This document shows positions 6,053-51,445 of a DNA stretch of 64,000 nt, in pieces. The translations under genes and the position numbers were made by a program. A model generated the notes under the pieces. It made no database searches. It was not told where the DNA came from and saw nothing but the letters and a program-made list of their open reading frames with translations. The DNA comes from Bacteriovorax sp. MedPE-SWde (lineage in GTDB: Bacteria > Bdellovibrionota > Bacteriovoracia > Bacteriovoracales > Bacteriovoracaceae), in contig MPCU01000002.1 of assembly GCA_001874305.1 (NCBI GenBank), forward strand, positions 434,001 through 498,000, read 5' to 3'. Each line of letters begins with the position of its first letter. The first letter of the stretch is position 1.

Positions 6053-6073
6053 AACTAAGAAAGTTTAGCGAGT

Positions 6074-7187: not shown

Positions 7188-7214
7188 TATATCATACGCA
7201 ATTTTATTCAGTCA

Positions 7215-29148: not shown

Positions 29149-29174
29149 GGCGAGTTTCTAATAACTCGCCTTTT
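29149..29174 (+). terminator. intrinsic terminator of the pentapeptide-repeat gene
   Basis: GGCGAGTT and AACTCGCC form an 8-bp stem with a six-base loop, followed by TTTT. It overlaps the stop codon of the convergent response-regulator gene. Confidence 0.75.
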
Positions 29175-30501
29175 CAACTATTCCCTTAAACTGCAGATAG
29201 ATTCTCTCACTGTGGCCTGAAGCAAACCCCCTACTTTTAAGCTTATCTAATAACCTATACATTGAATCTTTTGAATGACCCTCATGATAGAGATGATCTG
29301 CTATATGAAGAGAAGCAATAAATATTAAGCTAAGACCAAAAATATTAGATTCACTAACTCCACGAGGAAAACCCTCTCCGTTTGGAAGTTCATGATGCTC
29401 TCTAATTATTGTCAATACATCACTTGGAACTTTATCTGAATTTGAAAGCATTTTAGAGCATTCAGTTGCATGCTCCTTTACAAGTTTCTTTGATATAGAA
29501 TCGAGAGCAGAGTATTCGTCTCCACCAATATTATAAATTTTGCAAACCTCAGAGTTAGGCAAGAGAATATCATGTAAAATTGCCGCATAGAGAAGTTTAT
29601 TAATGATTGAGTCCTGTCCCATTCCCAACTTCGTTGCAAGAAGGTACGAGATATGAGCAGCAGTCATAGAATGAGAGATAAAGTATCCCCTTCCCTTTAA
29701 GAAGACTTGAATATGATCTTTTAAACTTTTTTCACTGTCTAAGATATCTATGCATGTTTCAATTGTTGTATTAATCAAAAGAAGCTGATCACTGGTAAGG
29801 CCCAACTGTATAAGACTATCTTGCATTATTTCTAAGCTATCTCCACAAATATCAATGTGTGAAATCTTAGCAGGAGTACCAAGTAGCTTATTATTGTGAT
29901 TGATAATAATACTATCCATAAAAGGTAGGAAAGACTCCCTTAACATATAAAAGCGATCGTTCCCTTTTTCTTGGTACTTCATTATCTCATCGAGTGAATC
30001 CTCTTCTGCGTTTTTAATCTTGATATATTTTTCTTCGCTAAGTTTTATAAAGACATCTTCTGACTTACATCCGTATTTAAGTAAAAGATTAATGCTCACA
30101 TGACAATACTTAGAATTATTCTCAGAGATATCGCTTCCTTCAAAAACATTATTAATTGTCGTAATTAATTCTTCGAAATCTACTGGTTTATGTATATACG
30201 CATTTTTCTCATTAACTTCATAGAAACTAGATATATCTTCATAGTCTTCAAGATAACCACCACTCACAAAAACAAAAGGGATATTTCCGTTACTTCTATT
30301 GTGATCGAAAACAGTAGCACCGTTTCCATCAGGCATATTATAGTCAGACAAAATAAGGTCGATATCACTTGTAGATTCAAGAATTGAAACTGCTTGGTTT
30401 CCAGTTTCTGCAGTGACAACCTCACAAGAAACTTCAGACTCAATCAGCGTTGTTAGTATATCGATGATCTCAACTTCATCATCAACTATTAGAATTTTCA
30501 T
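29158..30501 (-). CDS. response regulator with C-terminal HD-GYP-like domain
   Basis: 447 residues from the ATG at 30501. A GTG 14 codons upstream would add residues before the receiver domain. The receiver spans about 1-120, with the phosphoacceptor Asp53 in LILSDYNMP and an acidic pocket in VDDE near residues 6-9. The C-terminal part carries HD-type motifs: HSMTAAHISYLL, LHDI (His310-Asp311), KEHATECSKML, and His369-His370 in REHHELPNGEGFPRG. HD-GYP phosphodiesterases hydrolyse cyclic-di-GMP; the diagnostic GYP is GFP here, so activity is uncertain. Receiver plus HD-GYP is the RpfG architecture. No sensor kinase is adjacent. Confidence 0.82.
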   Translation of the reverse strand: MKILIVDDEVEIIDILTTLIESEVSCEVVTAETGNQAVSILESTSDIDLILSDYNMPDGNGATVFDHNRSNGNIPFVFVSGGYLEDYEDISSFYEVNEKNAYIHKPVDFEELITTINNVFEGSDISENNSKYCHVSINLLLKYGCKSEDVFIKLSEEKYIKIKNAEEDSLDEIMKYQEKGNDRFYMLRESFLPFMDSIIINHNNKLLGTPAKISHIDICGDSLEIMQDSLIQLGLTSDQLLLINTTIETCIDILDSEKSLKDHIQVFLKGRGYFISHSMTAAHISYLLATKLGMGQDSIINKLLYAAILHDILLPNSEVCKIYNIGGDEYSALDSISKKLVKEHATECSKMLSNSDKVPSDVLTIIREHHELPNGEGFPRGVSESNIFGLSLIFIASLHIADHLYHEGHSKDSMYRLLDKLKSRGFASGHSERIYLQFKGIVEKASY

Positions 30502-30708
30502 ATTTTTAGCTTTCCCATCAAATACCCTATCGACAATTTTCACATATATCTCATCATATTAAAGTTAAGAAATATTAATTTTTCATATATTTATATTATA
30601 TATCAATACCTTACCTATGCTTTAGAAAATATAGTCCAATAAGGTGGCATCACGTTTGCAATAAATACTATTAACTTAGTTTTAATGAACTTCCTCACTG
30701 GCTTAACT

Positions 30709-30756: not shown

Positions 30757-33450
30757 ATGTACAAGAAATTTGTAAAACCATCGCAAGGCCAACTTCTAGA
30801 GTTACTCAATCTTGATAGAGTCTATTTAAGCGGCCATCAGAATTATATCTATGATCAAGATCAGATTAAGATCTTAGATATGACAGGTAGTTATGGTGCA
30901 AATAATCTTGGCCACGGTAATGAGATAAGAAACAAGGCAGCTAATTACCTTATGGAGAACAGTCTTTCTTTTACTCAAGGTGCAATAAGAAAGGAAAGTG
31001 CGGAACTTGCCGAAATTATAAATTCAGAATTAAATAGTGAAGGTCATAACGGAGAATGGATAACTCAGTTCTCAAACACAGGAACAGAAGCAGTAGAAGT
31101 ATCTATAAAAATAGCAAAGAAGCACTATCAAGAAAAAGTATCAAAACTTAGGTTAGAGCTGAACGAACAATTTAATAAAGCTTATAAAGTAATAAATGAT
31201 AAGAATGACTCTCTAGAGAAACTTGCTAATGTAAAAGCAGAAAATGAAAAGATTCTTTCTCAGTCACCAAAAAGTGTCGCCATTGAAAATAGTTTTCACG
31301 GTAAAACGAGTGCATCACTTCAACTTACTTATAACGAGTCATTAAAAGACGGAATTCTCTGTGATTTAGAAAAGTCCTCAACTATATATGTTAAAAGAAA
31401 TAATAAAGTAGATCTTGTTCTCAAAGTTGAATCAGCAAAGACATATATTAATATGCCACAGATAACTAACGGGAATGTAGAGTTTAAGAAAGTTGCATTC
31501 TACCCTATTTCAGCCTTTATACTAGAACCAATCCAAGGCGAAGCTGGTATTTTTGAATTAGAAAAGGAATTTCTAGCAATCATTCAAGAAAACTCAAAGA
31601 GAATCGACTCACTATTAATATTTGATGAAATACAATCAGGTGTATATAGAACAGGAAAACTAGCAAGTTCGACTCATGCATCTATTACCCCTGACATTTT
31701 CACTTTTGCTAAAGGGCTTAGTGCAGGTTTTGCAAAGATCGCAACAACTGTAATAAACTCAAATATATTTCCAGAAGGATTTGACAATATTCAATCGTCG
31801 ACATTTGCTGAAGATGACATGTCTTCATTTGTAGCAAAAGAAGTATTAAAAGAATGTAAAATTGCATACGAGCAAAACAATACTAATATCGAAGAACTTA
31901 AATCTCAACTTAATGAATTAGTACTAAAGTACCCTACAGTATTTTCACAAGTAAGAGGAAAAGGACTAATGCTAGCAATTGAGATTGCTCAAGAATTAAG
32001 AACAAAGTTTTACGAATTCAAGTATTTTGCCGACTGTAATATGTTAGGACATTTACTTTCAAGCGCACTATTAAATAATGAACAAATAAGAATTGCACCT
32101 ACTCTATCTAATCAATCAACACTAAGAGTACAACCTTCACTTAGAGTAAATTCATGGGAAATAAGTAAACTAGTCCAAGGCCTAGAAAATATGGCAAAGC
32201 ATATATTACTAGAGAGCTCAGAATATTTCTTCGCTCATATTCTAGGTGAAATTGAAGTTGGAAGTTTTGGAAAAATAGAATCTCCAGTTGCGAAACAAAT
32301 AACGGCAGAATATAAAGATGCTGCAGTATTTCTAAACCACCCAATTGAAAATAACGATGTAAGAAAAATACTACCTGTACTTGAACACACACCAGATGAA
32401 GTACTTGAAGAAATAATGATGCAAACTTTTAATCTTCAAAGTTTCTCACCATATTTTGCGGAGAGAGTTGAAGGTGAGAATAGTCGAGAAATCGATATTG
32501 TTATGCTATCGATCCCATTAACTTCTAAAATATTATTTAAAAAGTTTAGATCAAAACAAAGACATAAAGTAGTCTTAAAAATTCAAGAAGGAATAGACAA
32601 GGCCAAAGCTCTAGGAGCTTCAACTGTTGGTCTTGGTCAATTCACATCAATAGTTTCTAAGAATGGAATGTACCTGGATAATAAAGGTCTTAATTTAACT
32701 ACAGGAAATAGTTTCACTGCAAAGCTTGCATACGAAGCAGGATTAAATGCACAGGAGACTAATCAAAAAGTAATTGGTCTTGTTGGATATGGTGGCAATA
32801 TCATCAGTACTATTGCTCAAATGGCACTAGCGGACGCTGAAAAGGTTGTTCTATTTCACAGAGGAAAAGACCTCTACGGAAATAAGATAAGAAATTCATT
32901 TGAGGAATTAATCAAGTATGTAATTAGAGCAAAAGTCAGCTCCCCCCTAATTGATAAAATAAGAAAAAGAGTAATGGACAGCATAGGAAATATATCTGAG
33001 TCATTAGAGAGTTTTTCAGATTTAATTGAGATCTCAAATGATCTCCAAGATCTCTCAAAGTGTGATGTAATATACACGGGAACGAACTCTACACGTCCTA
33101 TTATAACCGAGGATCTATTAAAGAAGAATACAACTATAATTGATCTTGCTGTCCCTGGTGATATTGATCCAAAATTGATAAAAGAGTCTTCGATTAAAGT
33201 TATCAAAGGCGGTATTGCAAGGTTCCCAACAAATAACGATAGAGATATTAAAATAAATATCCCATCATTTCCACTTAAAACAAATGAGTCGTTCGCTTGC
33301 ATGGCCGAAACATTCTCAATTGGTTTATCTTCTAAAAAAGGTAAACTTAATATAGGTCCAATAAGTATCGACGACATTTATGAGATTAGTGAAGTTGCAC
33401 AAGATGCAGGATTCAAACTTGCAGGAACAAAAACCGAAAGCTCATTCTAA
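30757..33450 (+). CDS. class III aminotransferase fused to acyl-ACP/thioester reductase
   Basis: 897 residues with two enzymes in one chain. Residues 1 to about 480 form a class III PLP aminotransferase: TGTEAVE, SFHGKTSAS, EPIQGEAG, FDEIQSG with Asp290, and FAKGLSAG with PLP-Lys319. Residues about 560-890 match the cyanobacterial acyl-ACP reductase family: GLGQFTSIV near 626, LTTGNSFTA, a Rossmann VGYGGNI near 675, KGGIARFP, and SFACMAE with Cys848 as the probable acyl-thioester nucleophile. The logical product is a long-chain amine: acyl-ACP to aldehyde to amine. TamH of tambjamine synthesis combines the same activities (known from the literature; homology not tested here). The ATG at 30757 follows AAAGGTG and begins a five-gene operon. 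Confidence 0.85.
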   Translation: MYKKFVKPSQGQLLELLNLDRVYLSGHQNYIYDQDQIKILDMTGSYGANNLGHGNEIRNKAANYLMENSLSFTQGAIRKESAELAEIINSELNSEGHNGEWITQFSNTGTEAVEVSIKIAKKHYQEKVSKLRLELNEQFNKAYKVINDKNDSLEKLANVKAENEKILSQSPKSVAIENSFHGKTSASLQLTYNESLKDGILCDLEKSSTIYVKRNNKVDLVLKVESAKTYINMPQITNGNVEFKKVAFYPISAFILEPIQGEAGIFELEKEFLAIIQENSKRIDSLLIFDEIQSGVYRTGKLASSTHASITPDIFTFAKGLSAGFAKIATTVINSNIFPEGFDNIQSSTFAEDDMSSFVAKEVLKECKIAYEQNNTNIEELKSQLNELVLKYPTVFSQVRGKGLMLAIEIAQELRTKFYEFKYFADCNMLGHLLSSALLNNEQIRIAPTLSNQSTLRVQPSLRVNSWEISKLVQGLENMAKHILLESSEYFFAHILGEIEVGSFGKIESPVAKQITAEYKDAAVFLNHPIENNDVRKILPVLEHTPDEVLEEIMMQTFNLQSFSPYFAERVEGENSREIDIVMLSIPLTSKILFKKFRSKQRHKVVLKIQEGIDKAKALGASTVGLGQFTSIVSKNGMYLDNKGLNLTTGNSFTAKLAYEAGLNAQETNQKVIGLVGYGGNIISTIAQMALADAEKVVLFHRGKDLYGNKIRNSFEELIKYVIRAKVSSPLIDKIRKRVMDSIGNISESLESFSDLIEISNDLQDLSKCDVIYTGTNSTRPIITEDLLKKNTTIIDLAVPGDIDPKLIKESSIKVIKGGIARFPTNNDRDIKINIPSFPLKTNESFACMAETFSIGLSSKKGKLNIGPISIDDIYEISEVAQDAGFKLAGTKTESSF

Positions 33451-33463
33451 AAAGGATAAAAAA

Positions 33464-34351
33464 ATGGCAAAAAGAATATATATTTATCTATCAGAAATGT
33501 TTCCTCCTCTACACTTTATAGGAACGTATTTATTTACAATTATTATAGCTGCCGCTGTGTGTTCAATCCAAGGTAGCCCTGACTTTATAAAAAACCCGTA
33601 TGTACATATGGCCGCATTTTCAGTTGTTCTTATGTCACTAATGGTAAGAATAATGGATGAATTCAAAGACTATGAAGACGATCTGGTTAATTTTCCAGAT
33701 AGGCCTCTACCAAGTGGAAGGGTAAGAAAACAAGATTTAAAAGTTCTACAAACAATAGTTATATCTACTATTCTACTTTTATCAATTTATAGAGTAGATG
33801 TATTTATAGCAACTCTATGTGTGCTCGCATATGGACTATTAATGTATAAGTGGTTCTTCATAGAAGAGAAAATGAGAAAAAGTCTACCACTTGCATTTCT
33901 ATCACATAACCCAGTCATTCTAGTTAAGTTTGGATTTATCTGTACCGTACTTAATTCCCAAGGATATGTAGATTCCATGACCAGCACGCTTATTGGTCTA
34001 CCACTAATGTTAACAATGACAAATTGGGAACTATCAAGAAAATTAAGATCTCCTGAAGATGAAACTGACTATACGACATATTCAAAAATATGGGGACCTA
34101 AGAATGCAGCGAAAGCGTCACTATTCATACAGTCTCTCGTTTTTGCAGGTGTAACTTCTTTCCTTGTGGCTTATGGTCACTCGAAAGTTATCATCGGCCT
34201 TTATACTGTAGTAGCTGGATACTATGCTTCAATCTATATACGATTTATTCAAACACTTAAACATACAAGAACATTTAAGATTCATGCTGAGAATCTTGCT
34301 CTTGCAACTCAATTAACAGTTCTTATATCTTCTATTGTGAAGCTCTCCTAG
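33464..34351 (+). CDS. UbiA-family prenyltransferase-like membrane protein
   Basis: 295 residues from the ATG at 33464, preceded by AAGGAT; the open frame continues upstream inside the previous gene. There are about eight or nine membrane helices. The first Asp-rich loop is DEFKDYEDD at residues 65-73, followed by PDRPLPSGRV (79-87), which is typical of UbiA proteins. The second acidic loop is SPEDETDY near residue 195. UbiA enzymes attach a polyprenyl or similar chain to an acceptor in the membrane. The first motif lacks the usual leading Asn, so the substrate may be unusual. The next gene starts within its stop codon. Confidence 0.82.
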   Translation: MAKRIYIYLSEMFPPLHFIGTYLFTIIIAAAVCSIQGSPDFIKNPYVHMAAFSVVLMSLMVRIMDEFKDYEDDLVNFPDRPLPSGRVRKQDLKVLQTIVISTILLLSIYRVDVFIATLCVLAYGLLMYKWFFIEEKMRKSLPLAFLSHNPVILVKFGFICTVLNSQGYVDSMTSTLIGLPLMLTMTNWELSRKLRSPEDETDYTTYSKIWGPKNAAKASLFIQSLVFAGVTSFLVAYGHSKVIIGLYTVVAGYYASIYIRFIQTLKHTRTFKIHAENLALATQLTVLISSIVKLS

Positions 34352-36873
34352 TGATTGATTATAACTCTTCAAATATTTCAGGTGGAAAAGGCGCTTCTCT
34401 AGTAAAATTAAAGAACGCAGGTTTTAATGTACCAAGTTTTACTATAGTCAATAGTATGGACTATAAGTATTGGAAGAAAGAAGGCACACTACCACAAGAA
34501 GCTATTAAACGAATTGATTCTTTTCTAAATTCATCAAAAGGTAATTTCTTTGCTGTTAGAAGTAGTGCGACTCAAGAAGATGGAGAGCATAGCTCATACG
34601 CAGGAGTATTAGAAACTTTTCTTTATGTAACAAGAGAATCCATTCTGGAAAATATAGAAAACTGCTTTCATAGTTTTAGTAATGAAAGACTTAAGGCATA
34701 TGAAAAATCGTCAAATCAATCTAACAAAAATGCAGCAATGGCCGTTGTAATACAAGAAATGATTGAGTCTGAAGTAAGTGGAGTACTGTTTACACGATCA
34801 CCTGACTTTGATAACTCTCTTGTATATATCGAGTCAGGCCTTGGATTAGGAGAAGGTGTTGTATCAGGTCTAGTCGAAGTAGACAGGTACTATACTTCAC
34901 GCTTCAATGAAGTAATTAAAAGTGATGTAAATAATAAGGATGAAGCTCTTATTTACTCTGCTACAAATAAGAGAATTGAAAAAGTCATAACACCAGAGCA
35001 AAAGAGTATACAAAGTTCTTTAAATGAAACACAGCTTCAAGAATTAACAAATGCTGCACTCTCAATAGAAAACTTCTACAATCATCCATGTGACATTGAG
35101 TGGACATATTCAAATAATGAACTATTTATACTTCAGTCGCGTCCAATTACTCAAAAGTTAAAACCTCTTGAATTATATATTGATACAAACCTATCAGAAA
35201 GTTACCCCGGACATACAACACCAATTACTGGTGACTATGTAAATGAGGCATATTCAAGAACACATCTAGAACTTGCACAACTAATAGGCCTTGATGGGCA
35301 ACGAAGAAAAGAGTTAATGCCCTATTTAGATACAATGACAAATTATGTTGATGGTCATATGTATTATCGTTTAGAGAGTTACTATAATATCCTTCTTTCA
35401 ATTCCGGGTGGAAAACAAAACTTACAGAACTGGCATAGAATGATTGGTGGTGAAGTAGATCACATAAATATAAAGACTACAGTATCACCTGCTGATACAA
35501 AAGATGCCATTTCATACTATAAGTTTCTAGGCACAATTATATTTAAACATTCAAAGATTTTTCAAAGCTTCGTTGTGAATGCTAATCAGAAGAAAAAAGA
35601 TTTATACAACTCACTAGATAAGTGTAAATCTATATCAGATAAGATCTCCTTACTTAAGTACGCTCTCAAAAGTATTGAAGGTTTTTCTCTTACGGCCTTT
35701 AACGATGTTCTTACAATGAAGGGACTTAATCAAGTCTGTAGAATTCTTGACAAGTATGAGATTGATCATTCTATTATTCCAACTTTATTAAAAACGGAAT
35801 CAGGAGTAGAGTCACTTAATCCTCTGAATCATCTTATAAGCTTATCTGAAACAATTAAAGATCAAGAATTTTACGATATATTTAAAGGTCTTTGTGAAAG
35901 CACGAAGAATATCTCAATTTTTAAACGTTACGATAAAATACTAGAAGTACTTACAGAACAGGGTTATGAAGATACAGCCCAGGCCATTTCAAAATTCATT
36001 GATAAATATGGAAATAGATCTTTTGAAGAGTTAAAACTAGAATCTCTAACAATCAAACAATCCCCAGAGCTTTTACTTAGCTTATTAAAGCTACACGAAA
36101 CTTCATCGAGTAAGAATGAAGTGAGTGTAAACGAGGAAGATAATACTGAAAGTCTTGATAGTATAGGATTTATAGATCGAAAAATTTTGAATCTTGTCGT
36201 GTCTAAAACAAGAAAGTATATAGCAACAAGAGAAGAATGTCGTCTCATTAGAGGTGAAATGTATGGTTGGTTTAGGGAATGCTTTTTATCAATATTTGAA
36301 GAGCTTCGTTTACATAAAGACTTAAGTCATATCCCAACTTTAGACTTCTTTTACTTACACCTCAATAGTCTCTATGAAATTCAAAGAGGCGAAATAGAGA
36401 TTGCAGAAATCGAAGAAATCATTATAAAGAATAAGAAAAAGTATCTTCCAGTTAATTCATATCCTGAATTTCTCTATAAAGAAGACTTAGAGAATGGTTC
36501 ATATATTGGTAAAGTCGAAGAAGATAGTACGATAACACTAGGAGAAGTCGAAGTACGTGGACTTAGTGCCTCCAAGGGAAATATTGTAGGTAAAGTACTT
36601 GTTCTTAATAACCCTATTGAAGCTCTACACAGAAATGACTTACACGAATGTATATTAGTCACAAAGAATACAGACCCTGCTTGGATCTATATTATGACAA
36701 AGTGCAAGGGTTTGATCTCAGAGAAAGGAAGCCTACTTAGTCACACAGCAATTATCGGAAGAGAGTTAAATGTTCCGACAGTAGTTGGAGTAAAGAATAT
36801 TACCCAATTGCTAAAAAACACGAAGCAAATTAACCTAGATGCAGACAAAGGTGTTATTAATATTATTGAATAG
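34351..36873 (+). CDS. PEP-synthase-like ATP-dependent phosphotransferase (PigC/rifampin-phosphotransferase architecture)
   Basis: 840 residues, starting at a GTG that overlaps the UbiA stop (TAGTG). The N-terminal ATP-grasp domain (about 1-270) shows GGKGASLVKLKNAGFNVPS, FAVRSSATQEDGEHSSYAG, the GLGLGEGVVSG loop and ILQSRPIT. A long central domain (about 280-740) resembles nothing I know. The C-terminal swivelling domain carries GSLLSHTAIIGRELNVPTVVG with His798 as phospho-carrier. The C-terminal PEP/pyruvate barrel of true PEP synthase is absent. The same layout is seen in rifampin phosphotransferase and in PigC/TamQ, which condense prodiginine or tambjamine precursors. Here it may activate or join the amine made by the fusion enzyme (inference). 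Confidence 0.8.
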   Translation: MIDYNSSNISGGKGASLVKLKNAGFNVPSFTIVNSMDYKYWKKEGTLPQEAIKRIDSFLNSSKGNFFAVRSSATQEDGEHSSYAGVLETFLYVTRESILENIENCFHSFSNERLKAYEKSSNQSNKNAAMAVVIQEMIESEVSGVLFTRSPDFDNSLVYIESGLGLGEGVVSGLVEVDRYYTSRFNEVIKSDVNNKDEALIYSATNKRIEKVITPEQKSIQSSLNETQLQELTNAALSIENFYNHPCDIEWTYSNNELFILQSRPITQKLKPLELYIDTNLSESYPGHTTPITGDYVNEAYSRTHLELAQLIGLDGQRRKELMPYLDTMTNYVDGHMYYRLESYYNILLSIPGGKQNLQNWHRMIGGEVDHINIKTTVSPADTKDAISYYKFLGTIIFKHSKIFQSFVVNANQKKKDLYNSLDKCKSISDKISLLKYALKSIEGFSLTAFNDVLTMKGLNQVCRILDKYEIDHSIIPTLLKTESGVESLNPLNHLISLSETIKDQEFYDIFKGLCESTKNISIFKRYDKILEVLTEQGYEDTAQAISKFIDKYGNRSFEELKLESLTIKQSPELLLSLLKLHETSSSKNEVSVNEEDNTESLDSIGFIDRKILNLVVSKTRKYIATREECRLIRGEMYGWFRECFLSIFEELRLHKDLSHIPTLDFFYLHLNSLYEIQRGEIEIAEIEEIIIKNKKKYLPVNSYPEFLYKEDLENGSYIGKVEEDSTITLGEVEVRGLSASKGNIVGKVLVLNNPIEALHRNDLHECILVTKNTDPAWIYIMTKCKGLISEKGSLLSHTAIIGRELNVPTVVGVKNITQLLKNTKQINLDADKGVINIIE

Positions 36874-36886
36874 TTGAGGATTATAA

Positions 36887-37972
36887 ATGCAAATTGAAAT
36901 GTTTGATCTAGACTCTGCGTACCTTCATAAGTTCATTGCATTACAGGATAAATACTTTACTCAAGAAAATTTTATTCCATCTTTCAAAGAATCCCTTTAC
37001 GCTACATTAAATACCTCAAATCCATTCTTTCATAATGCTAAATATAGCTTAATCTTAGTGCTAAATGATGAAATGCCAATAGCAAGAGCACTAGTCACGA
37101 TAGATCCACGACGAGTTAATGAAGAAAGCTCCGTAGTAGGAAATATTGGATACTTTGAATGTCCAAATGATAAAAGTATCTCAAAATTATTAATGGATAC
37201 TGCTATAGACTGGCTTAAGCAAAACGGTGCAACAAGTGTTCATGGTCCAATGGATCTCCATATTTATAATAATTATAGATTTATGACTGAAGGATTTGAT
37301 ACAAGTCCCTTTCTTGCAGAGCCTAGAAACCCTTCATACTACCCTAGTCTATTCGAAAACTACGGATTCGAAGAAGATAATTATTGGAGGAGTTGGGAAA
37401 TTGAAGAAGACGAACTATCTAAGTTTTATGATTTTCTCAATATGATCGTAACGAGAAGAAAGAATATTCACGGAATTGAGCTTTCTCCAATTGACATAGA
37501 AAATATAGAAGATGCATTAAGTGAGTTATATGAGACTGCGCTAGATATATTTTCTCAAAACTATAGTTACTCGAAAATATCTAAAGAAGAATTTGTTGCT
37601 ATTTTTTCAAAGCTTAAAAACTTTCTTGCCCCTAACTCATTTCAAATAGCGAAAGACAGCACAGGTAAGATTGTCGGGTTCATGTATGGGCATATCGATT
37701 TTGCAGAAGGGTTTAAAAAAGCAAATGGAGACTATAGTAAATTAATAGAAAATATGGCATATAAACCTCAGAGGTATATCTATCATACATTTGGCGTCAT
37801 CAAAGAGATGAGGTTCTCTGACATGACAGGAAGACTAACACACTCTCAGATTGGAGAATTTAAAAATATATTTCCCCAATCAATTGCTGCATTGACTACT
37901 TCACAGAAGTCTATTGTTGAAAGAATAAAAGAACCTAATCGTTACTATAAGATGTATAAACTTGAGTTATAA
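36887..37972 (+). CDS. GNAT-like N-acyltransferase-type protein
   Basis: 361 residues, probably two GNAT-fold halves. The segment HGPMDLHIYNNYRFMTEGFD, then PRNPSYYPSLFENYGF, follows the pattern of a family of about 370-residue GNAT-like proteins (G-P-x(n)-GFD-x-P-x(n)-NP-x-YY-x(n)-GF). The second half contains GKIVGFMYGHIDF. Such proteins would transfer an acyl group to an amine, which fits an operon led by an amine-forming enzyme. The donor and acceptor are unknown. It is 13 bases after the PEP-synthase-like gene, with GAGGA before the ATG, and abuts the next gene directly. Confidence 0.65.
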   Translation: MQIEMFDLDSAYLHKFIALQDKYFTQENFIPSFKESLYATLNTSNPFFHNAKYSLILVLNDEMPIARALVTIDPRRVNEESSVVGNIGYFECPNDKSISKLLMDTAIDWLKQNGATSVHGPMDLHIYNNYRFMTEGFDTSPFLAEPRNPSYYPSLFENYGFEEDNYWRSWEIEEDELSKFYDFLNMIVTRRKNIHGIELSPIDIENIEDALSELYETALDIFSQNYSYSKISKEEFVAIFSKLKNFLAPNSFQIAKDSTGKIVGFMYGHIDFAEGFKKANGDYSKLIENMAYKPQRYIYHTFGVIKEMRFSDMTGRLTHSQIGEFKNIFPQSIAALTTSQKSIVERIKEPNRYYKMYKLEL

Positions 37973-38839
37973 ATGAATGAAAAAGAAAAAATTGGAAAAT
38001 ATGCTGCACTCCTCTCTATTATTGAGATCGGTCTTGGTAGTTTTCTACATTCTTTAAAAATCCCATTTTCTGGACATTTTCTTTCTTTAAATCAGGGTTT
38101 TATCCTAACAAAGGCGTCTTTAGAAATTGAGGATAAAAATACGCCAGCACTTATTAGTACGACCTCGGCCCTATTAAAATCATTATCACCAGCAGGAAAG
38201 AAGCTAACACCTATGTTGGCCATCTCAATGCAAGGACAGTTATTTAATATTGGTACCAGACTATTTGGAAGGAATATTTTTGGGCACTCTATCGCAATAG
38301 TCTTATTGGCATTATGGAGTTTCGTACAGCCTATTTGCATATATTTCATATTATTCGGTAAAGACTTTCTCTATATGATTCAATATTTCATTAGAAAGTT
38401 AAATCGTGTATTTCCAGTAACAGAGGAAAACTTATTAGTAATTCTCTTATGTATTATTGCTCTTAAGCTCACTCTTGGAGTATTCGTAGTTTTGTTGGCC
38501 TATAAATATAAGGGGCAAGATATCGAAACTTACAAGAACTGGGCGAAGAAACAAAAAAGAAAAAGTAAGGCAAAATCTGAAAGAAGTCCACTTATGGCCG
38601 CGTTTTCAGACCTTTTAAACCCAATGTTTATAATATCATTGATCTTAACAGGTATTTTCTACTTCTATTCAAAGTCAGATAAATCTATCGTTATCTGGGG
38701 ACTAATGAGGCCTCTTGCTCTTGGATATATTATATTTCTAGTAATAAGAATTTTTCCAATAGAGAAATTTGCCACAAAGCTCAAGCAAGGCAAATATAAA
38801 GAAGTACTTGAAGAGACACTTAAGAATTTAAAGGAATAA
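37973..38839 (+). CDS. multi-spanning membrane protein of the operon, unknown
   Basis: 288 residues with about six membrane helices. It begins GKYAALLSIIEIGLGSFLHS, then a polar KIPFSGHFLSLNQG segment, and has a Lys-rich cytoplasmic loop at about residues 185-205. The start ATG comes immediately after the stop of the GNAT-like gene, so it belongs to the same transcript. A transporter or lipid-handling role is possible, but I do not recognise the family. It converges with xdhC with only a four-base gap. Confidence 0.6.
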   Translation: MNEKEKIGKYAALLSIIEIGLGSFLHSLKIPFSGHFLSLNQGFILTKASLEIEDKNTPALISTTSALLKSLSPAGKKLTPMLAISMQGQLFNIGTRLFGRNIFGHSIAIVLLALWSFVQPICIYFILFGKDFLYMIQYFIRKLNRVFPVTEENLLVILLCIIALKLTLGVFVVLLAYKYKGQDIETYKNWAKKQKRKSKAKSERSPLMAAFSDLLNPMFIISLILTGIFYFYSKSDKSIVIWGLMRPLALGYIIFLVIRIFPIEKFATKLKQGKYKEVLEETLKNLKE

Positions 38840-38843: not shown

Positions 38844-39623
38844 TTACTTATCCCTATGTCTCAATAGCTGTGCTGCAATACTAATAGCAATCTCGCCAGG
38901 ATGATTACTCCCAATCTTCTCCCCTATAGGACAAATAAAAGAGTTAATCTTATCTTCATTAAGGCCAAGCTCTTTTAACTCGGCCTCCATTCGATTTCTC
39001 TTTGATTGACTGCCAATCACGGCCAAATAAGGAAACGATCTCTCATTTAAGGCCTTGTGCAATATAGGTACATCATAAGCGTGGCCCATAGTCATTAGGG
39101 CCACATATGAGTTATCACTAATATTCACTAAAGCTTCACTCATCTCTTTTGCATGTATTTTAGTGAGATTTTTATTATCTTTAATTTTATCTAGCCACTC
39201 TATTCTATTATCAATAACAGTAAGGTCACAATCGAGTCTTAATAATAGCTGAGTAAGTTCTTGCGAAATATGGCCAGCACCAAAAACAACAATACTCCAA
39301 AGAGGTTTAGGACGCATAACTTCAAAGAAGAAGCTAACTTCACCTCCACAAGTCATTCCGATATCTTTTTGTAAATTCCATGTATGTGAAATTGCCGAAA
39401 CTTTATCATCTGCTAACAATTTCTTTGAATAGTTTATACAGTGGGCCTCAACTTTTCCCCCACCAACAGTTCCAAAGTCTAGCCCGTCAGATGTTGCAAT
39501 CATTTTTGCACCAATATCTTGTGGAGCACTTCCTCTAAGGCCTGTAATAGAAACCGTTACAAAAGACTTACCCATCTCTTCAAGTTCTATTGAACGGTCA
39601 AAGTAAGATCTATTAATTTCCAC
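38844..39623 (-). CDS. xdhC: xanthine dehydrogenase accessory protein XdhC
   Basis: Protein needed to insert the sulfurated molybdenum cofactor into xanthine dehydrogenase. 259 residues. The N-terminal XdhC/CoxI domain shows VSITGLRGSAPQDIGAKM and GTVGGGKVEAHC, with the CGGEVSFFFE stretch. The C-terminal Rossmann domain starts VVFGAGHISQEL near residue 112. The GTG start (39623) follows AGGATT and overlaps the xdhB stop, so it is translated with xdhB. Confidence 0.9.
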   Translation of the reverse strand: MEINRSYFDRSIELEEMGKSFVTVSITGLRGSAPQDIGAKMIATSDGLDFGTVGGGKVEAHCINYSKKLLADDKVSAISHTWNLQKDIGMTCGGEVSFFFEVMRPKPLWSIVVFGAGHISQELTQLLLRLDCDLTVIDNRIEWLDKIKDNKNLTKIHAKEMSEALVNISDNSYVALMTMGHAYDVPILHKALNERSFPYLAVIGSQSKRNRMEAELKELGLNEDKINSFICPIGEKIGSNHPGEIAISIAAQLLRHRDK

Positions 39624-41943: not shown

Positions 41944-43397
41944 AAAGCCGCCTCACTAAAGTTCATTCCACTATCAACAATAACTTCGTCGCAAAACTTA
42001 AGCATGAGATTATGCGCCAATAGCTTACGATAATCACTCGTACCACGAACATCGCTAAGAGGTTTAATTTCTGAGTCCAGCATTTTTGCAACTTTTTTAA
42101 ATGTAGCTTGGTCTAGTTTAGTTCCTATAATGGCCTGTTCAACTGACTTAATACGCATAACGACTGGTCCGACACCACCAATTCCTATTTTAAAATCAGT
42201 GAAGACTCCACTATCTAATTTATATGCAATTGCCATACTAACACTTGAGATATCAAGGTCTTTTCTTATCGATACTTTGTATAATTTAAATTTATAATTA
42301 TTCTTTGGTACTATAATTTTTGTAACTAACTCATCAGGTTTAAGATCAAGTTCTTTGTAACCACCAAGAAAGAAGTCGTCGATAGAAATAACTCTTTCAT
42401 CTTTCCCGTTATTTAAAACAACTTTAGCTCCACTAACTCTAAGAAAAGGAATCGTATCGCCAATTGGAGAGGCATTTACAAGGTTTCCTACAAGTGTCCC
42501 CTTATTCTTTATTTGAGGTGATGCAAAAACATGCAGTTTTTGAGAAAACTCTAAGAAGTCCTTTTCACATGCTTTTTCTACATCTGTGAGAGATGCCTTG
42601 GCACCAATAACTAACTCACTTTCTGTATCTTCAACTTTATATGATTCAAGTATATTATTAAGGCTAACAATATGTTGTAAATCTAGTTTACCTTTATTCA
42701 CAAGAACACCAAGATCTGTTGCACCTGAAGTTAGCTTCTTCTTTCCTAAACTTCCGCTTGCATAAAGAGAGTCATATGAATGAGGAAGGAGAACTTCTTT
42801 AGTTTTATTTGAAATGAGTACGTCTTGATCTTGAAGACTTGAGAACTCATTACTCATAGATGCATAATCATACTGATCTTTAAACTTTGTTACTTGGCCA
42901 AGGTCTGTTTCTACTCCGGCCTTTACGATTGGTTCATAGCCAGTACAACGGCACAAGTTACCAGTTAAGTAATTCTTTACTTTCTTTTCATCAATACTAA
43001 TTTTGCCATTAACGGCATCTTCAGACATTGCGGCCATAGAACAGATAATACCAGGAGTACAGTAGCCACACTGAGCCCCGTGATGTTTCATCATAGCATC
43101 TTGTACAGGATGTAAATGATCGAGTTTTTTCAAACCTTCTACCGTGATAAGATGACAGCGATCTAAAAGATACATAAAACTAATACAAGAGTTGATCGAG
43201 TGAGTCTGGCCCATCTTCTTTCCATCAAATCTTGAAATTAATACTGTACATGCTCCACAGTCTCCTTCAGAACAAACTACTTTTGTTCCTGTCAGACCTT
43301 TAACATATCGTAAGTAACTAGCGACAGTATCGAAGGCATGTGTACCATCGAGCTCATGTCGAACACCATTTATATAAACTAAAATTGAATTTCTCAT
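41940..43397 (-). CDS. xdhA: xanthine dehydrogenase FeS/FAD subunit
   Basis: 485 residues from the ATG at 43397. The frame is open 24 codons further up but has no conserved residues there. The plant-type 2Fe-2S cluster is bound by Cys42, 47, 50 and 71 (CSEGDCGACTVL). The second 2Fe-2S domain has Cys110, 113 (QCGYCTPG) and Cys149, 151 (GNLCRCTGY). The FAD domain follows (about 195-485), with KNKGTLVGNLVNASPIGDTIP. Together with XdhB it forms the heterodimer. It heads the operon xdhA-B-C, which lies between two lipid-type operons. Confidence 0.93.
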   Translation of the reverse strand: MRNSILVYINGVRHELDGTHAFDTVASYLRYVKGLTGTKVVCSEGDCGACTVLISRFDGKKMGQTHSINSCISFMYLLDRCHLITVEGLKKLDHLHPVQDAMMKHHGAQCGYCTPGIICSMAAMSEDAVNGKISIDEKKVKNYLTGNLCRCTGYEPIVKAGVETDLGQVTKFKDQYDYASMSNEFSSLQDQDVLISNKTKEVLLPHSYDSLYASGSLGKKKLTSGATDLGVLVNKGKLDLQHIVSLNNILESYKVEDTESELVIGAKASLTDVEKACEKDFLEFSQKLHVFASPQIKNKGTLVGNLVNASPIGDTIPFLRVSGAKVVLNNGKDERVISIDDFFLGGYKELDLKPDELVTKIIVPKNNYKFKLYKVSIRKDLDISSVSMAIAYKLDSGVFTDFKIGIGGVGPVVMRIKSVEQAIIGTKLDQATFKKVAKMLDSEIKPLSDVRGTSDYRKLLAHNLMLKFCDEVIVDSGMNFSEAAL

Positions 43398-43529
43398 GAC
43401 GAAGAGTATCGCATTTATGACTAGGAAACTCAATCTATACGCACAGCACAAGCAATTAATATGCAACAATTAGTGGCGTTCACAGTTATTTATCATAAAG
43501 CTATAAGTGGTCTCTAACAGGAGAGACAC

Positions 43530-45275: not shown

Positions 45276-45812
45276 CTACATTGGCTCTTTTCTGAGCTTT
45301 AACAAGTACAGCACGTAGTTTAGTAATAAATGAATAACAGTTCCCATTACTAAGAATGAAAGCAAATGTATAATACTGGCCTTAGTCATAAAGTAATACA
45401 CTATAATCAAACCAAACCCTGAATCGACTTGATCCAGTACAGAGTGAAAAAGTATATTCTCCTTTGACATTTTGCCAGGCTCAATACCTTTTCTTCTTTT
45501 AATATATGAATTTGGAAGTTCAAATAGACAATAGAAGATACCAAGAGCTATTGCTAAGATGATAGGATTATAAATACTGAGTCCAATATCAAGGTCAAAG
45601 GACCTTTCCATCCAAAGAGCAGTATAGACACCAGGGATTGTAAGAAGAGGCATGGCAACGAAGCCCCTATAAGTCTTATTCTTGCCAAAGGCCGCTGTAT
45701 TAATAGGTATTTTAATAAACTTACATAGATCAAGAGTTACTACGACCATATGGAGAACACCTCCAAAAACAAGGGGTATTAATAATAGAAATACTTCTAA
45801 TAAGAAATTCAT
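45276..45812 (-). CDS. CDP-archaeol-synthase-like (CarS family) membrane protein
   Basis: 178 residues with about five membrane helices. The motif pattern matches the CarS/CDP-diglyceride-synthase-like group: FGKNKTYRGF near residues 43-52, FELPNSYIKRRKGIEPG near 98-114, and SVLDQVDSGFG near 128-138. Archaeal CarS uses CTP to activate a glycerol-phosphate ether lipid. A bacterial relative would act on a lipid phosphate or alcohol. It starts inside the stop codon of the second PEP-synthase-like gene (TAATG), so it is in an operon with that gene and psd. Confidence 0.65.
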   Translation of the reverse strand: MNFLLEVFLLLIPLVFGGVLHMVVVTLDLCKFIKIPINTAAFGKNKTYRGFVAMPLLTIPGVYTALWMERSFDLDIGLSIYNPIILAIALGIFYCLFELPNSYIKRRKGIEPGKMSKENILFHSVLDQVDSGFGLIIVYYFMTKASIIHLLSFLVMGTVIHLLLNYVLYLLKLRKEPM

Positions 45813-48178
45813 TATTCTGTCTCCACTATGATTGCCCCTGCATCACCATCAATTGTTATATTCATTCCCGTCTTTAAAAGATTCGTTATTTTGGAAACAT
45901 TAAGAACTGCAGGAATTCCATATTCTCGGCTTATAACAGCGGCATGCGAAAGTACTCCTCCAACCTCAGTTACAACACCTGCAACTTTACCAAGTACAGG
46001 AGTCCAACCAGGGTCTGTAAACTTTGTAATGAGAATATCTCCATCTTTAATTCCAGCAGTTTCATCAAGTGTCTTTGCCACTATGACTCTTCCACTAACA
46101 AGACCTGGAGAACAAGCAATTCCTCTATATACGATTTTTCCATCAAGCTCTTCAACTCTTAGCTCTGTTTGTTTACGACCATAACCAAAGTCGTTTGGAG
46201 CTTCAAAATTAGTATAGCCTCTGTATTGCTTTCTTCTATATAAGATTGATCCTTTATATACACTGAGAGAAGTATTGTTTTCAATGAGGTCTATTATTTC
46301 ATCAATATGTAAGAAGAAGATATCTCCTCGACTTCCCCAACGTCTGTCTTGTTCTAGTAAAAACTTCCTAATCAAGTAATATGAACGAGTTGAATACTCT
46401 CTCATCTTCTCCCTTAGTTTAAGATAGCTTCTTACAAAATCTAATTTATTCTGAAATTTCTTATATATTCGATTCGAGAATAATCCTCCATTCTTTTCAA
46501 TCAATTCAGACACTCTAGAAACTTCAGTTTCATATGAATTAGAACTAGAGCTTGATGTCTCTTTATAGTTTCGGGCCATTTCAATTACACGAGAAGGGAC
46601 TTCTCCCCATCTTGGAACAGTAATGTCCAATTCACGATCACCGTGATGAAAATGTGGAACGAGAAAACTATTTACACTATCTTTTACTTCTTGAGAGTTT
46701 TCTCCATATTCATCAATGGCCGCTTTAACCTTCTTTAGATCTTTTTGTATTTCAAGATGTGAAACACCATCAAGGCCAGTTAAAAGTTGAATAGTATTAA
46801 CTTTTTCCCCAATTTTCTTTTCTAACTTTTCAAGATATTCATTGAACATAGTTTGAAGATTAGAATTATTATAAATTGTTCTATAGTAACTCGTTTCAGT
46901 ATGTAGAAAGAGTACATTTATCAAAGATAAGAAATCACTGGAAAAGTCATTGTCACTTAGTTTTGAAAGGTCTTCATTTACTAATTTATGATACTTATTT
47001 TCAAGTGGCTCAAAGAAGTTAGAGAAGTCTAAGTGCTCCTTGTGACACTTCTTAAATTCTTTTTCCATACCTATTAGAACTGGTATTGCTCGCAGAAGAG
47101 TCAAAGGATTTTGGCCAGTTGTCTTTGGTCCAGACTCACCATAATCTTTCATGATTCCAAGATCTATATCAAAGTTGGCTTCATTAAACCCAGGGATCTT
47201 TTGAAGCATACTCTTTACATTTCCAGCACTCCAGTATGCCCTTCCGTAACATGAAAAAAGCCACTGAGAAGGATGATCCTTAGGTAGTAAAGTGAGTTTC
47301 TTAAAATACTCTGGCATACTTGTGTTCATTGCCTTTCTGTATAATGAGAACATCATAGGAGTACAAACAGCAGATGAAATTCCTCCATCCTTTAAGTCCG
47401 CATCGGTTAATTCACCAAGATCTTTTCTCCATTCTATAGTTGTAATAGGTCTTGCTTGAAGAATCCATAGTTCTCCATTCTTATCAATGGCCCACTCAAC
47501 ATCTTGTGGAGTATTAAAATATGCCTGGATATCAAGAATCTGTATGGCAAGACTTTTAAGCTTTTCACCACTCAAATCAACTTTACTATTTTCTATATTT
47601 TTATGAATTATCTCTTCATTCTCATAGTGATAGGTATATTGATTAGGAGTTACTTCCCCAGAGACAAGATGCTCTCCAACTCCTTCACAAACTTCAAGAA
47701 GCATATGGTCTTCAATTCCGTCTAGCGGATTAATACTAAATGCGACCCCTGCACAGAAAGGGTCTATCATTTTTTGTATAAGAACAGAGAACTGACTATA
47801 TAGTTCTTCATTACTTTTTTCTATTCCAGCATTAGAAAGGTAGTCCTTAACTCTTTCACCCTGAGAAGATTCAAAACAATTTCTAATACTAGACTTTAAG
47901 TCTTCAAGGTTATCTATAAAAAGAAATGTTTCATAAAGGCCTGCGAAACTCATATCACCAAGATCTTCAAGCTGACCGCTACTTCTTACAGCAACAGGAA
48001 AGCCTCCAATCTTTTCAATACTTTCGAGAAGATCTTTATCTGAATATTTATCACTATAACGAATGATGTAGCCACCAGGGACATTAAATCCACCTTTTAA
48101 GAGTTCAACTAAATTCCCTGCTTTCTTACCAAGTGACTCTCTTTGCTCGTCTGTAAGGTTGTCATTTAAGAATTTCAT
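45812..48178 (-). CDS. second PEP-synthase-like ATP-dependent phosphotransferase
   Basis: 788 residues with the same architecture as the protein at 34351-36873. The N-terminal ATP-grasp domain shows KKAGNLVELLKGGFNVPGG, PVAVRSSGQLEDLGDMSFAG and WILQARPITT. A large central domain is not recognised. The C-terminal swivelling domain contains GGVLSHAAVISREYGIPAVL, with His745 as the phospho-carrier. The PEP-binding barrel is missing, so it is not a PEP synthase. It may phosphorylate or join an organic substrate at the cost of ATP to AMP and phosphate. It overlaps psd (ATGA) upstream and the CarS-like gene downstream, so it probably works on a lipid or a lipid head group (inference from neighbours). 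Confidence 0.8.
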   Translation of the reverse strand: MKFLNDNLTDEQRESLGKKAGNLVELLKGGFNVPGGYIIRYSDKYSDKDLLESIEKIGGFPVAVRSSGQLEDLGDMSFAGLYETFLFIDNLEDLKSSIRNCFESSQGERVKDYLSNAGIEKSNEELYSQFSVLIQKMIDPFCAGVAFSINPLDGIEDHMLLEVCEGVGEHLVSGEVTPNQYTYHYENEEIIHKNIENSKVDLSGEKLKSLAIQILDIQAYFNTPQDVEWAIDKNGELWILQARPITTIEWRKDLGELTDADLKDGGISSAVCTPMMFSLYRKAMNTSMPEYFKKLTLLPKDHPSQWLFSCYGRAYWSAGNVKSMLQKIPGFNEANFDIDLGIMKDYGESGPKTTGQNPLTLLRAIPVLIGMEKEFKKCHKEHLDFSNFFEPLENKYHKLVNEDLSKLSDNDFSSDFLSLINVLFLHTETSYYRTIYNNSNLQTMFNEYLEKLEKKIGEKVNTIQLLTGLDGVSHLEIQKDLKKVKAAIDEYGENSQEVKDSVNSFLVPHFHHGDRELDITVPRWGEVPSRVIEMARNYKETSSSSSNSYETEVSRVSELIEKNGGLFSNRIYKKFQNKLDFVRSYLKLREKMREYSTRSYYLIRKFLLEQDRRWGSRGDIFFLHIDEIIDLIENNTSLSVYKGSILYRRKQYRGYTNFEAPNDFGYGRKQTELRVEELDGKIVYRGIACSPGLVSGRVIVAKTLDETAGIKDGDILITKFTDPGWTPVLGKVAGVVTEVGGVLSHAAVISREYGIPAVLNVSKITNLLKTGMNITIDGDAGAIIVETE

Positions 48179-49053
48179 GACTTCACTCTCCCAACTTCGC
48201 TACCTAATTTAAAGTAGCTTTCAATACCTTTTGATGAGTAATCTGATAGGTATTTATTAAATTCTATATTCTTATTTTTTACCAGCATGACAACAGTTGA
48301 GCCACCAAAGAGGAAATGCCCCTTGGCCTCACCTCTTTTAAATTCGCTATTCTTCCACTTTTGTATAATAGTACCGACACAGAATGCACCTATCTCTACG
48401 TAAGCAACTTCACCTAAGTTCTTACAATTTAATATATTCACAACTCTTTTATTGGTATTAAGCACATCTACTTTATTTCTAAGAGCAATGGGAGAAACGG
48501 AATTTAGACTTCCTTTAATTTCAAAGCTATCTAAAACTTCTCCATCATCAGGAAAATGAAACCAATGATAATCGACTGGTGCTAGCCGACAAATGATCGC
48601 CGTAGCATCTTTATATTCTTCACCATATTCTTCCCCTATAAGATCTAATGGAGAGATACGACTTCCCTTAAGATTAACTTTATCTTTCGCCTTACTAACT
48701 AAATAGCGACCTTCGCAAAAGGCAGGAAGTACTGATTGATCACTAGACCACTCTCTCTTGCCTGGAAGAAATGTTCTTGCAAAGTAGTCATTAAAAGAAT
48801 TGAATTTTTCTATAGAGTTAAAATCTTTGGCATTTACTCCATAGTCTTTTATAAAGCTTGGAATCTCTTTAGCGCTGGCCTTTCTATTCTTAGTCCAACC
48901 ATAAATAGTGCATGGAATTGTATGAGTTAATAACTGACCTAGTAGCGATCCAGATCTCGACTCATAGAGCCATCTTAAAACTCGCGCTCCAAATACTTGT
49001 TCTTGCGTAAGTTTACCTTGCTCAATGTCAAAATACTCTATCTTACTAGTCAT
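48175..49053 (-). CDS. psd: phosphatidylserine decarboxylase-like proenzyme
   Basis: Decarboxylates phosphatidylserine to phosphatidylethanolamine and matures by self-cleavage into two chains with a pyruvoyl group. The cleavage motif is FLFGGSTVVML, with Ser252 as the future pyruvoyl residue. The family segment APVDYHWFHFP holds the conserved His residues. Earlier parts include FNSFNDYFARTF and PAFCEGRYL. The 292-residue length is usual. The ATG at 49053 is preferred, and a GTG two codons earlier is possible. It is first in an operon with the second PEP-synthase-like gene and the CarS-like gene, so its substrate might be another phospholipid of similar shape. It is divergent from the MMPL exporter. 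Confidence 0.88.
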   Translation of the reverse strand: MTSKIEYFDIEQGKLTQEQVFGARVLRWLYESRSGSLLGQLLTHTIPCTIYGWTKNRKASAKEIPSFIKDYGVNAKDFNSIEKFNSFNDYFARTFLPGKREWSSDQSVLPAFCEGRYLVSKAKDKVNLKGSRISPLDLIGEEYGEEYKDATAIICRLAPVDYHWFHFPDDGEVLDSFEIKGSLNSVSPIALRNKVDVLNTNKRVVNILNCKNLGEVAYVEIGAFCVGTIIQKWKNSEFKRGEAKGHFLFGGSTVVMLVKNKNIEFNKYLSDYSSKGIESYFKLGSEVGRVKS

Positions 49054-49129
49054 AGACACACCGTTTAATTGTAGATTCCTATACTATAGATTAAGATAAT
49101 CCGGTCATTTCATAAACCAGGTAAAAAAC

Positions 49130-51445
49130 ATGAAAAAAGTCGATAAGATTGCTCAGGATTTAAGTACTTCCATAGTAACCCGTCCAATAAAGTGGCTATG
49201 CTTAGCATTTGTAGTCTTGGCCATTACCGGTTTTGGTATAACTAAAATCAAGACAAACTTCTCAGTTAAAGTATGGCTTGACCAAAATGATCAGAGAATT
49301 CACGATCTAGAAGAGCATGAGGCCACATTTGGAAGTTCGGATACTATTGACGTCATTATCTATAATAAGAAAGGTGTCTTTAATAAAGAAACAATCCAAA
49401 CTATTCAAAACTTCACTGAGGATATGTGGCAAGTTAGAGATGTCGTGAGAGTTGAGTCTCTTACTAATGCTAATTGGATCGACACAGTAGAAGATGACAT
49501 TAATATTATCCCATTCCTTGATGAAGAAGTTTCACTTGATAAGACTACATTAGAAGACAAGAGGCTTTTGGCAGTAAACGATGAGCAACTAAGAAATAAC
49601 TCAGTATCAAGAACTGGAAAAGTTGCCTATATAAGAAGCTTTCTTCGCGTCTATAAGAAGAATCCGGCCTACAAACAAATTGTTAGTGAAGTAGAGTCCA
49701 TCGCAAAGAAATACGAGACAGAAGATATTAAAGTACACTTAAGTGGTATTGCCTATATTAATGAGTCTCTTTCAAGAGCGTCAGACCGTGATATGAAAAT
49801 GGTATTTCCTATCGTAGTACTTCTCTTAATAATAATCTTAGCTTTCTTTTTTAGATCCCCATTAGCTGTAGTATATCCCTTTGCTTTGATTGGTGTAACG
49901 ATAGTTGCAACTTTTGGTCTAGAAGGACATTTAGGTCTTGAATTTAATAATATACTTTCTGCAGTTCCTGCCGTTCTAATTGCGATAGGTCTTGCAGATG
50001 CAGTACATGTACTCATTAGTTATCGTCACAATATTATTTTTGAAAATGAAGATAATGTGACGGCGGCAATACACTCTCTAAAAAAGAACTTTATTCCAAC
50101 AGTACTGACAACGATCACAACAACAATTGGTTTCTTTAGTTTAATGACTGCAGAGATTCGTCCAATTCATGATCTAGGAATGTTAAGTGGACTAGGAACA
50201 ATGCTTGCATGGGTATTTACATATTTCTTTATTGGACCAATCTTAAAGTATATTAACTTTCCTAAGAAAAAGATTAATGAAGATATATCAGAGCTCTCAT
50301 TTCTCTATAATTTTGCTTATAAGTATAAAACTCCAATAAATATATGCTTACCAATCCTTGCTGTATCTATGGCAATTTACGGGTCTCAAAATATCATTAA
50401 TGCTGACCCTGTTGAATACTTTGATGATTCCACACCTGTTAAGAAAACCTTTAACTTAATGCGAAAAGAGTTTGGTGGATCAAGAGCTATTGAGATGGTC
50501 TTTGATAGTGAGAAGAACGAAGGAATAAAAGATCCCGAGTTTTTAAAGAAGGCCGACAAGCTAATCTCTTGGATAGAACAGAATGATAAAGTCGTTCGAG
50601 TAAACTCTCTTGTTCAAATTATTAAGAAGATGAACCAAACCCTACATGAAGGTCAAAAGAAATATTATGCAATTCCCAATAGTCGAAGAGAAATTGCTGA
50701 TCAATTATTCCTTTATACACTCGGACTTCCAGAAGGGATGGATTTAAAAAACCAATTATCTTTAGATAATAGAAAATTCAGAGTTATTGTCCTTTGGGAT
50801 ATAAACGACACAATGAATGCGATAAAAGGTACAACCGCCATTATGAAGAAGGCCAAGGAAATTGGTATAGAAGTCTATGAAGCGGGTCAGTCCCCTATCT
50901 ACAATAGAATAAATGATCTAGTTGTAGCGACTTTCTTTAGCTCTATGAGTATTTCAATCCCAATGATTTTTCTCATTATGCTACTTGTCTTTAAAGATCT
51001 AAAACTTGCCCTACTATCATTAATTCCTAACCTCTTTCCTCTGGCTACGGCGAGTGGAATAATGTATCTCAACGGAGATGAAATCAATATTGGAAATGTT
51101 ATTGTTTTCAGTGTTTGTTTGGGTATTGCCGTTGATGACACCATACACTTTATTGCAAACTATAAACTAAAGAAGTCACGAGGCATGCCAGGTATTGAGG
51201 CCTTAAAGTCTACACTTGCTCAAACCGGAAAGGCACTTGTTTTAACGACCCTCATGCTCGTTCTAGGTTTTGGGATGTTTGTCATTGGTGAATTTGTTCC
51301 TAATCAAAAGTTTGGAATCTATTGTGCTGTAATTCTAGTTCTGGCACTTGTCGCCGACCTAATACTACTACCAGCAATTCTTCTGGCTACAGAAAATGAC
51401 GAAGAAGAGCTAAATCCAGAGCTTGTAGTGACTCAAAACTCTTAA
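49130..51445 (+). CDS. RND/MMPL-family transporter
   Basis: 771 residues with the twofold RND layout: a helix at about 20-40, a periplasmic loop to about 220, six helices (about 225-385), a second helix and loop, then six helices to about 765. Conserved intramembrane segments are GLADAVHVLISYRHN and GIAVDDTIHFIANY, holding the proton-relay Asp residues. MMPL-type proteins often export lipids or hopanoids, and COG1033-like members match this size. It lies divergent to psd and next to two lipid-type operons, so lipid export is plausible, but the cargo is unproven. It ends shortly before lipA. Confidence 0.88.
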   Translation: MKKVDKIAQDLSTSIVTRPIKWLCLAFVVLAITGFGITKIKTNFSVKVWLDQNDQRIHDLEEHEATFGSSDTIDVIIYNKKGVFNKETIQTIQNFTEDMWQVRDVVRVESLTNANWIDTVEDDINIIPFLDEEVSLDKTTLEDKRLLAVNDEQLRNNSVSRTGKVAYIRSFLRVYKKNPAYKQIVSEVESIAKKYETEDIKVHLSGIAYINESLSRASDRDMKMVFPIVVLLLIIILAFFFRSPLAVVYPFALIGVTIVATFGLEGHLGLEFNNILSAVPAVLIAIGLADAVHVLISYRHNIIFENEDNVTAAIHSLKKNFIPTVLTTITTTIGFFSLMTAEIRPIHDLGMLSGLGTMLAWVFTYFFIGPILKYINFPKKKINEDISELSFLYNFAYKYKTPINICLPILAVSMAIYGSQNIINADPVEYFDDSTPVKKTFNLMRKEFGGSRAIEMVFDSEKNEGIKDPEFLKKADKLISWIEQNDKVVRVNSLVQIIKKMNQTLHEGQKKYYAIPNSRREIADQLFLYTLGLPEGMDLKNQLSLDNRKFRVIVLWDINDTMNAIKGTTAIMKKAKEIGIEVYEAGQSPIYNRINDLVVATFFSSMSISIPMIFLIMLLVFKDLKLALLSLIPNLFPLATASGIMYLNGDEINIGNVIVFSVCLGIAVDDTIHFIANYKLKKSRGMPGIEALKSTLAQTGKALVLTTLMLVLGFGMFVIGEFVPNQKFGIYCAVILVLALVADLILLPAILLATENDEEELNPELVVTQNS

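Follow-up and report, generated by a model that had tools for sequence, protein, structure and literature searches.

A TamH-type transaminase/reductase locus in Bacteriovorax sp. MedPE-SWde and its proposed role in polar-lipid synthesis

What does a bacterium make with an amine-forming fusion enzyme of the kind known from pigment pathways when the genes conserved around it are lipid genes? The question is raised by a five-gene locus in a stretch of 64,000 nucleotides (the window; G000:C8:434001-498000) from the 3.76-Mb genome of Bacteriovorax sp. MedPE-SWde, judged to be a marine predator of the Bacteriovorax/Halobacteriovorax type. The answer that we find somewhat probable is an unusual polar lipid. 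Its synthesis and export would be shared between this locus and a second cluster in the window (45276-51445), and the place of the Spt-derived sphingoid base would be taken in it by a TamH-type amine, which the product of gene D probably N-acylates. That the genes specify a polar-lipid pathway of some kind we consider likely, and an amine or amide core for the lipid is a close call that leans toward yes. Every reaction and product proposed below is deduced from homologies, catalytic residues, co-localization and co-occurrence. The genes of the locus and their upstream neighbor are as follows.

29158..30543, minus strand: divergent response regulator with an HD domain, upstream of A and kept there in the related locus L021
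30757..33450, plus strand: gene A, class-III aminotransferase (N-terminal) fused to an acyl-ACP/thioester reductase (C-terminal), TamH-type; alternative GTG start at 30748
33464..34351, plus strand: gene B, UbiA-like membrane protein (from Pfam, NCBIfam and motifs)
34351..36873, plus strand: gene C, rifampin-phosphotransferase-type relative of PEP synthase (from Pfam, NCBIfam, alignment and fold)
36887..37972, plus strand: gene D, acyltransferase of the YghO/bCerS family (GNAT fold) that lies outside the Spt-linked clade
37973..38839, plus strand: gene E, membrane protein whose position implies co-transcription

All five ORFs (30757-38839) lie on the plus strand in the same direction, and the junctions read from the sequence span 13 bases or fewer, in agreement with the tight packing given in a preliminary description of this DNA. 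The stop of A at 33450 and the ATG of B at 33464 are separated by a gap of 13 bases, the stop of B and the GTG of C overlap by one base at 34351, and the spacing is 13 bases between C and D and 0 between D and E. A longer ORF for B could begin at 33380, a start that is less likely than 33464 because the match to NCBIfam PRK13592 begins only at residue 29. The HD-domain response regulator at 29158..30543 is a possible regulator of the locus. The preliminary description had also offered co-conservation of the five genes as a check on the operon, and the genomes of relatives uphold it for A to D, but not for E, whose distribution and synteny are different. Homologs of E are present in 45 of the 129 genomes of the family, many of them without A, and in G009 and G125, which both carry A, the E homolog is far from it. 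On these grounds E was rejected as a pathway member; it is a neighbor and not a conserved part of the A-D set. E matched no Pfam family, and it may belong to purine metabolism. Xanthine dehydrogenase-like genes on the minus strand (38844-43469) converge on E, and likewise on its homolog in G009 (L158 1153-7167).

The N-terminal half of A matches Pfam Aminotran_3 (4.6e-57). The Pfam match of the C-terminal half is Shikimate_DH, and a profile of this half from ten relatives finds the reductase domain of PigE (4ppm, 9e-42) and cyanobacterial acyl-ACP reductase (AAR; 6jzq, 3e-25), with the FACMAET segment of A aligned to the cysteine region of AAR. The fusion of an aminotransferase with an acyl-ACP reductase that was described earlier is thus upheld, and the profile places the C-terminal half among reductases and not in some other family. 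Both catalytic residues are in place, the PLP lysine at Lys319 and the thioester cysteine at Cys848 (numbered from the ATG). PtTamH, from the tambjamine YP1 pathway of Pseudoalteromonas tunicata, matches A in its two domains and in their order and possesses both of these residues. PtTamH is a transaminase followed by a thioester reductase that converts fatty aldehyde to amine in an L-Glu-dependent reaction and, when coupled with TamA, converts fatty acids to amines (PMC9594044). PigE also carries both domains, but in the opposite order, and A scores far below the cut-off of the PigE model. Since A is a TamH-like fusion in the TamH domain order, the formation of a fatty amine, which the preliminary description had proposed for the operon, is the best inference for its function, and with the lysine and cysteine intact A probably makes a long-chain amine. 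The setting of A differs from that of PtTamH in that its cluster lacks a TamA-type acyl-ACP loader and its genomic partners are lipid genes rather than bipyrrole genes.

Several of these partners are found in the second cluster of the window.

45276..45812, minus strand: CarS-like CTP:lipid-phosphate cytidylyltransferase family (PF01864), adjacent to A-B in the related loci L022 and L069
45812..48178, minus strand: PPS2, a second PEP-synthase-like phosphotransferase
48175..49059, minus strand: a second phosphatidylserine-decarboxylase-like protein (PSD) with a GGST maturation motif
49130..51445, plus strand: MMPL/RND-type exporter

In two sister species, G005 (L022) and G001 (L069), the CarS-PPS2-PSD-MMPL group stands directly after A-B, with A truncated by a contig end in G001. 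Co-occurrence among the 129 family genomes, for which the p values come from Fisher tests that ignore shared ancestry, is marked: A and B orthologs have 24 carriers each and share 15 of them (p=6e-8), B and CarS co-occur in 22 of 24 (p=1e-16), and A and CarS share 16 (p=2e-7). The regrouping of the same genes between the window's genome (G000) and G001 points the same way as these statistics. Two full PSD genes are present in each of the four cluster-bearing genomes of the genus (G004 has a PSD fragment besides), and one in each of the two cluster-free genomes. The CDP-alcohol transferases of the window's genome are only the two common to the whole genus, a point against the proposed pathway, and no additional CDP-alcohol phosphotransferase that goes with the cluster was found in the genus genomes, where a weak third match occurs in G005 only. 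Downstream of the MMPL gene, on the plus strand at 51491-53189, are lipoyl-synthase-like radical SAM and lipoyl-ligase-like genes.

The conserved partners of A are lipid genes, namely a bCerS/YghO-type acyltransferase, CarS, PSD, MMPL- or Lol-type export and P450; related loci also hold a lipid kinase, a BtaA-like DUF3419 protein and a desaturase. In six loci of freshwater or pond relatives from other genera (L024, L029, L032, L062, L067 and L070), a CarS-B-C-P450-D set stands beside A and is adjoined by MacB/LolC-like permeases and, where the locus is long enough, by an ABC ATPase and a LolA-like protein. The set in L025 is the same without P450, and a second locus of G001 (L157) brings together D-like, P450 and C-like genes. 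Beyond its presence in 24 of the 129 family genomes, A is found in rare Bacteroidota (Terrimonas; 1 of the 296 genomes of its family), where it is accompanied by P450 and a YghO-type protein in L030 and by P450, DUF3419 and a desaturase in L031; no C homolog was found in the Bacteroidota carriers G143 and G144, which speaks against the reading preferred here. Also found beside A in L030 and L031, apart from P450, are B12-type radical SAM proteins and a FemAB-like protein.

D gives a sub-threshold Pfam match to GNAT and is homologous over its full length to YghO of E. coli MG1655 (BLASTP 2e-19, 366 columns), which agrees with its earlier description as GNAT-like. YghO is a homolog of Caulobacter CC_1154, with which the yghO gene has been paired as an acyl-CoA N-acyltransferase required for dihydroceramide synthesis (PMC9386255). 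The tree, of 51 rows, groups the 20 Spt-linked proteins in a single 100/100 clade, in which YghO is found as well; outside it are D and 24 of the 25 other operon-linked proteins, the exception being that of Terrimonas L030. D is thus a paralog and not an ortholog of ceramide synthase. The structural neighbors of its AlphaFold model are GNAT proteins only, and these count as support only, since the mean pLDDT of the model is 54. A canonical operon of Spt, bCerS/YghO and a CerR-like SDR is present on contig 14 of the window's own genome (L149, G000:C14:17001-33000, at 5923-9237). D is therefore an extra enzyme, and the genome probably makes ordinary ceramides as well. The proposed pathway would share the logic of bacterial ceramide synthesis (Spt, bCerS/CC_1154/YghO and CerR), in which an amine is N-acylated and then phosphorylated and activated with CDP; Caulobacter phosphosphingolipid synthesis involves a ceramide kinase and a CDP-DAG-synthase-like protein, and CC_1161 has a CDP-DAG synthase domain (PMC11324152). 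It would differ in that the amine comes from A instead of Spt, which sits on the other contig and not in the A-E locus, as well as in the place of D outside the Spt-linked clade and in the separateness of the canonical set.

C is composed, in order, of an ATP domain, a helical acceptor domain and a His domain. Its Pfam matches are PPDK_N and the PEP-utilizers mobile domain, with no PEP/pyruvate barrel model among them, as expected for the barrel-less PEP-synthase-like phosphotransferase of the preliminary description, and K13, R70 and H798 are conserved. The best full-length sequence match is PRK06241 and the best fold match is rifampin phosphotransferase; C aligns over its whole length to RPH-Lm (5hv1/5fbs, E 4e-35), which has the same three domains, but the identity is 22% and C scores 223 bits against the NCBIfam RPH cut-off of 999. 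Rifampin, L-glutamine in Campylobacter, and prodiginine condensation are among the established acceptors and reactions of PEP-synthase-like enzymes, and because these enzymes act on such diverse acceptors, a lipid or head-group acceptor for C is plausible. B clears the cut-off of the Pfam UbiA model PF01040 (40.1 bits against 34.2), so it was correctly described as UbiA-like. Its first Asp-rich motif, DEFKDYEDD...RPLPSG, is intact and conserved in 27 sequences. The second motif, which in canonical UbiA proteins is of the DxxxD type, is conserved as NWExxRK, so prenyl transfer by B cannot be assumed.

These assignments suggest a mechanism in which A would convert a fatty acyl-ACP by way of the aldehyde to a long-chain amine, as judged from TamH chemistry and the intact catalytic residues, and D would N-acylate this amine to give a two-chained, ceramide-like amide. 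An oxygen function may be supplied by the P450 in the many relatives that have one. From their families, C and PPS2 would transfer a phosphate to the lipid or to its head group, CarS would turn the lipid phosphate into a CDP-lipid, the housekeeping PssA may add serine to the CDP-lipid, and the extra PSD would decarboxylate the product. B presumably acts on the lipid core, in a reaction not fixed by its family given the altered second motif. Export would be carried out by the MMPL protein here, and by the Lol-type ABC and LolA-like proteins in relatives. The order of the steps, the acceptor of C and the role of B are guesses.

An alternative is that the useful product of A is the aldehyde or alcohol, as in an ether- or wax-type lipid, and that the amine is a variant of some lineages or a side product. 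This is unlikely in our judgment, and it deserves a hearing on account of loci in many other genera in which B-, C- and D-like genes are accompanied by genes for a lipid kinase of the YegS type, for an SDR and for a protein of 680 residues that ends in an acyl-ACP reductase domain, with varying extras (P450, BtaA-like DUF3419 and an AMP-binding domain, in many cases as a fusion with B). In G134 (L150) this transaminase-free module is found where the genus mate G009 (L062) has A; hence A is one of two or more routes into what is, at its conserved core, a lipid pathway. There is no transaminase in the B-, C-, D-like loci of G134, G014 and the second locus of G110, so the D relative in each of these cannot acylate a locally made TamH-type amine, a point against our preferred reading. 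Moreover, the A homolog of G100 (L028/L071) has Asn at the PLP lysine and is without HGKT, and retains the reductase cysteine. G100 is the exception, however, since lysine and cysteine are kept in the other A homologs checked by motif, Bacteroidota L031 included (three rows fell outside the lysine search pattern and were left unjudged). The TA-TR fusion is itself conserved, at 31-62% identity, with 62% for the relative in Bacteriovorax sp. DB6_IX (L021), and D is from an N-acyltransferase family, all of which argues for the amine.

The preliminary description had further proposed that the amine is joined to a second unit in the manner of TamQ or PigC. A tambjamine- or prodiginine-like alkaloid, for which C would condense the amine from A with an activated aldehyde, accords with the likeness of A to TamH and with the ATP and His domains that C and PigC have in common, but C reaches only 267 bits against the PigC cut-off of 1300 and 209 bits against the RedH cut-off of 1350, and it folds as a rifampin phosphotransferase, which leaves such joining unsupported. 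No MBC bipyrrole gene was recognized among the window proteins scanned, and C occurs also without A. We give this alkaloid very little credence; the earlier expectation that the product is unlike tambjamines agrees with the lipid genes conserved beside A. Equally hard to credit is an archaeal-type ether phospholipid, in which B would be a geranylgeranyl transferase followed by CarS and PSD. The UbiA-like, CarS-like and PSD genes do mirror the order of the archaeal CDP-archaeol pathway, and the pairing of B with CarS is very tight. However, geranylgeranylglyceryl-phosphate synthase (GGGP synthase, PF01884) was not found in six genomes of the genus, in searches with positive controls, and for this reason the pathway was rejected as the main reading. 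The non-canonical second motif of B also stands against it, as do the added fatty-amine and N-acyltransferase genes, A and D, which would be left without a role.

The polar lipid that we prefer may, in its boldest form, represent a new class of bacterial membrane phospholipid, made by predatory bacteria alongside ordinary sphingolipids, with an N-alkyl fatty amide core derived from a TamH-type amine and with PEP-synthase-like enzymes as lipid kinases upstream of a CarS-type cytidylyltransferase. We rate this form as somewhat less likely than not. If the preferred reading is right, bacteria would have, beside the Spt route, another way to ceramide-like lipids, an amine-forming fusion of pigment pathways would enter membrane lipid synthesis, and a large uncharacterized family of PEP-synthase-like proteins would gain a testable role as lipid kinases. 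No description of the A-D/CarS gene combination was found in the literature searched in full text. Since the cluster is present in a named isolate, Bacteriovorax sp. DB6_IX, the product can be sought there.

Some related loci differ in composition from those above. The YegS kinase, the SDR and the 680-residue reductase protein with its uncharacterized N-terminal domain form a widespread lipid locus (L132, L133, L134, L136, L137, L147 and L148), for which no description was found; its further genes encode AMP-binding and UbiA proteins (sometimes fused), a PEP-synthase-like protein and often YghO, P450 and DUF3419. A 1512-residue ORF in G023 (L065 8277-12815) contains an A homolog, which suggests that A is joined there to a further domain. 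The A homologs of L061, L063, L064 and L066 keep company with a different tailoring set: ThiL-like, thymidylate-kinase-like and HAD proteins, together with Spt-like enzymes in L061 and L063 and sulfate-activation genes in L061 and L064.
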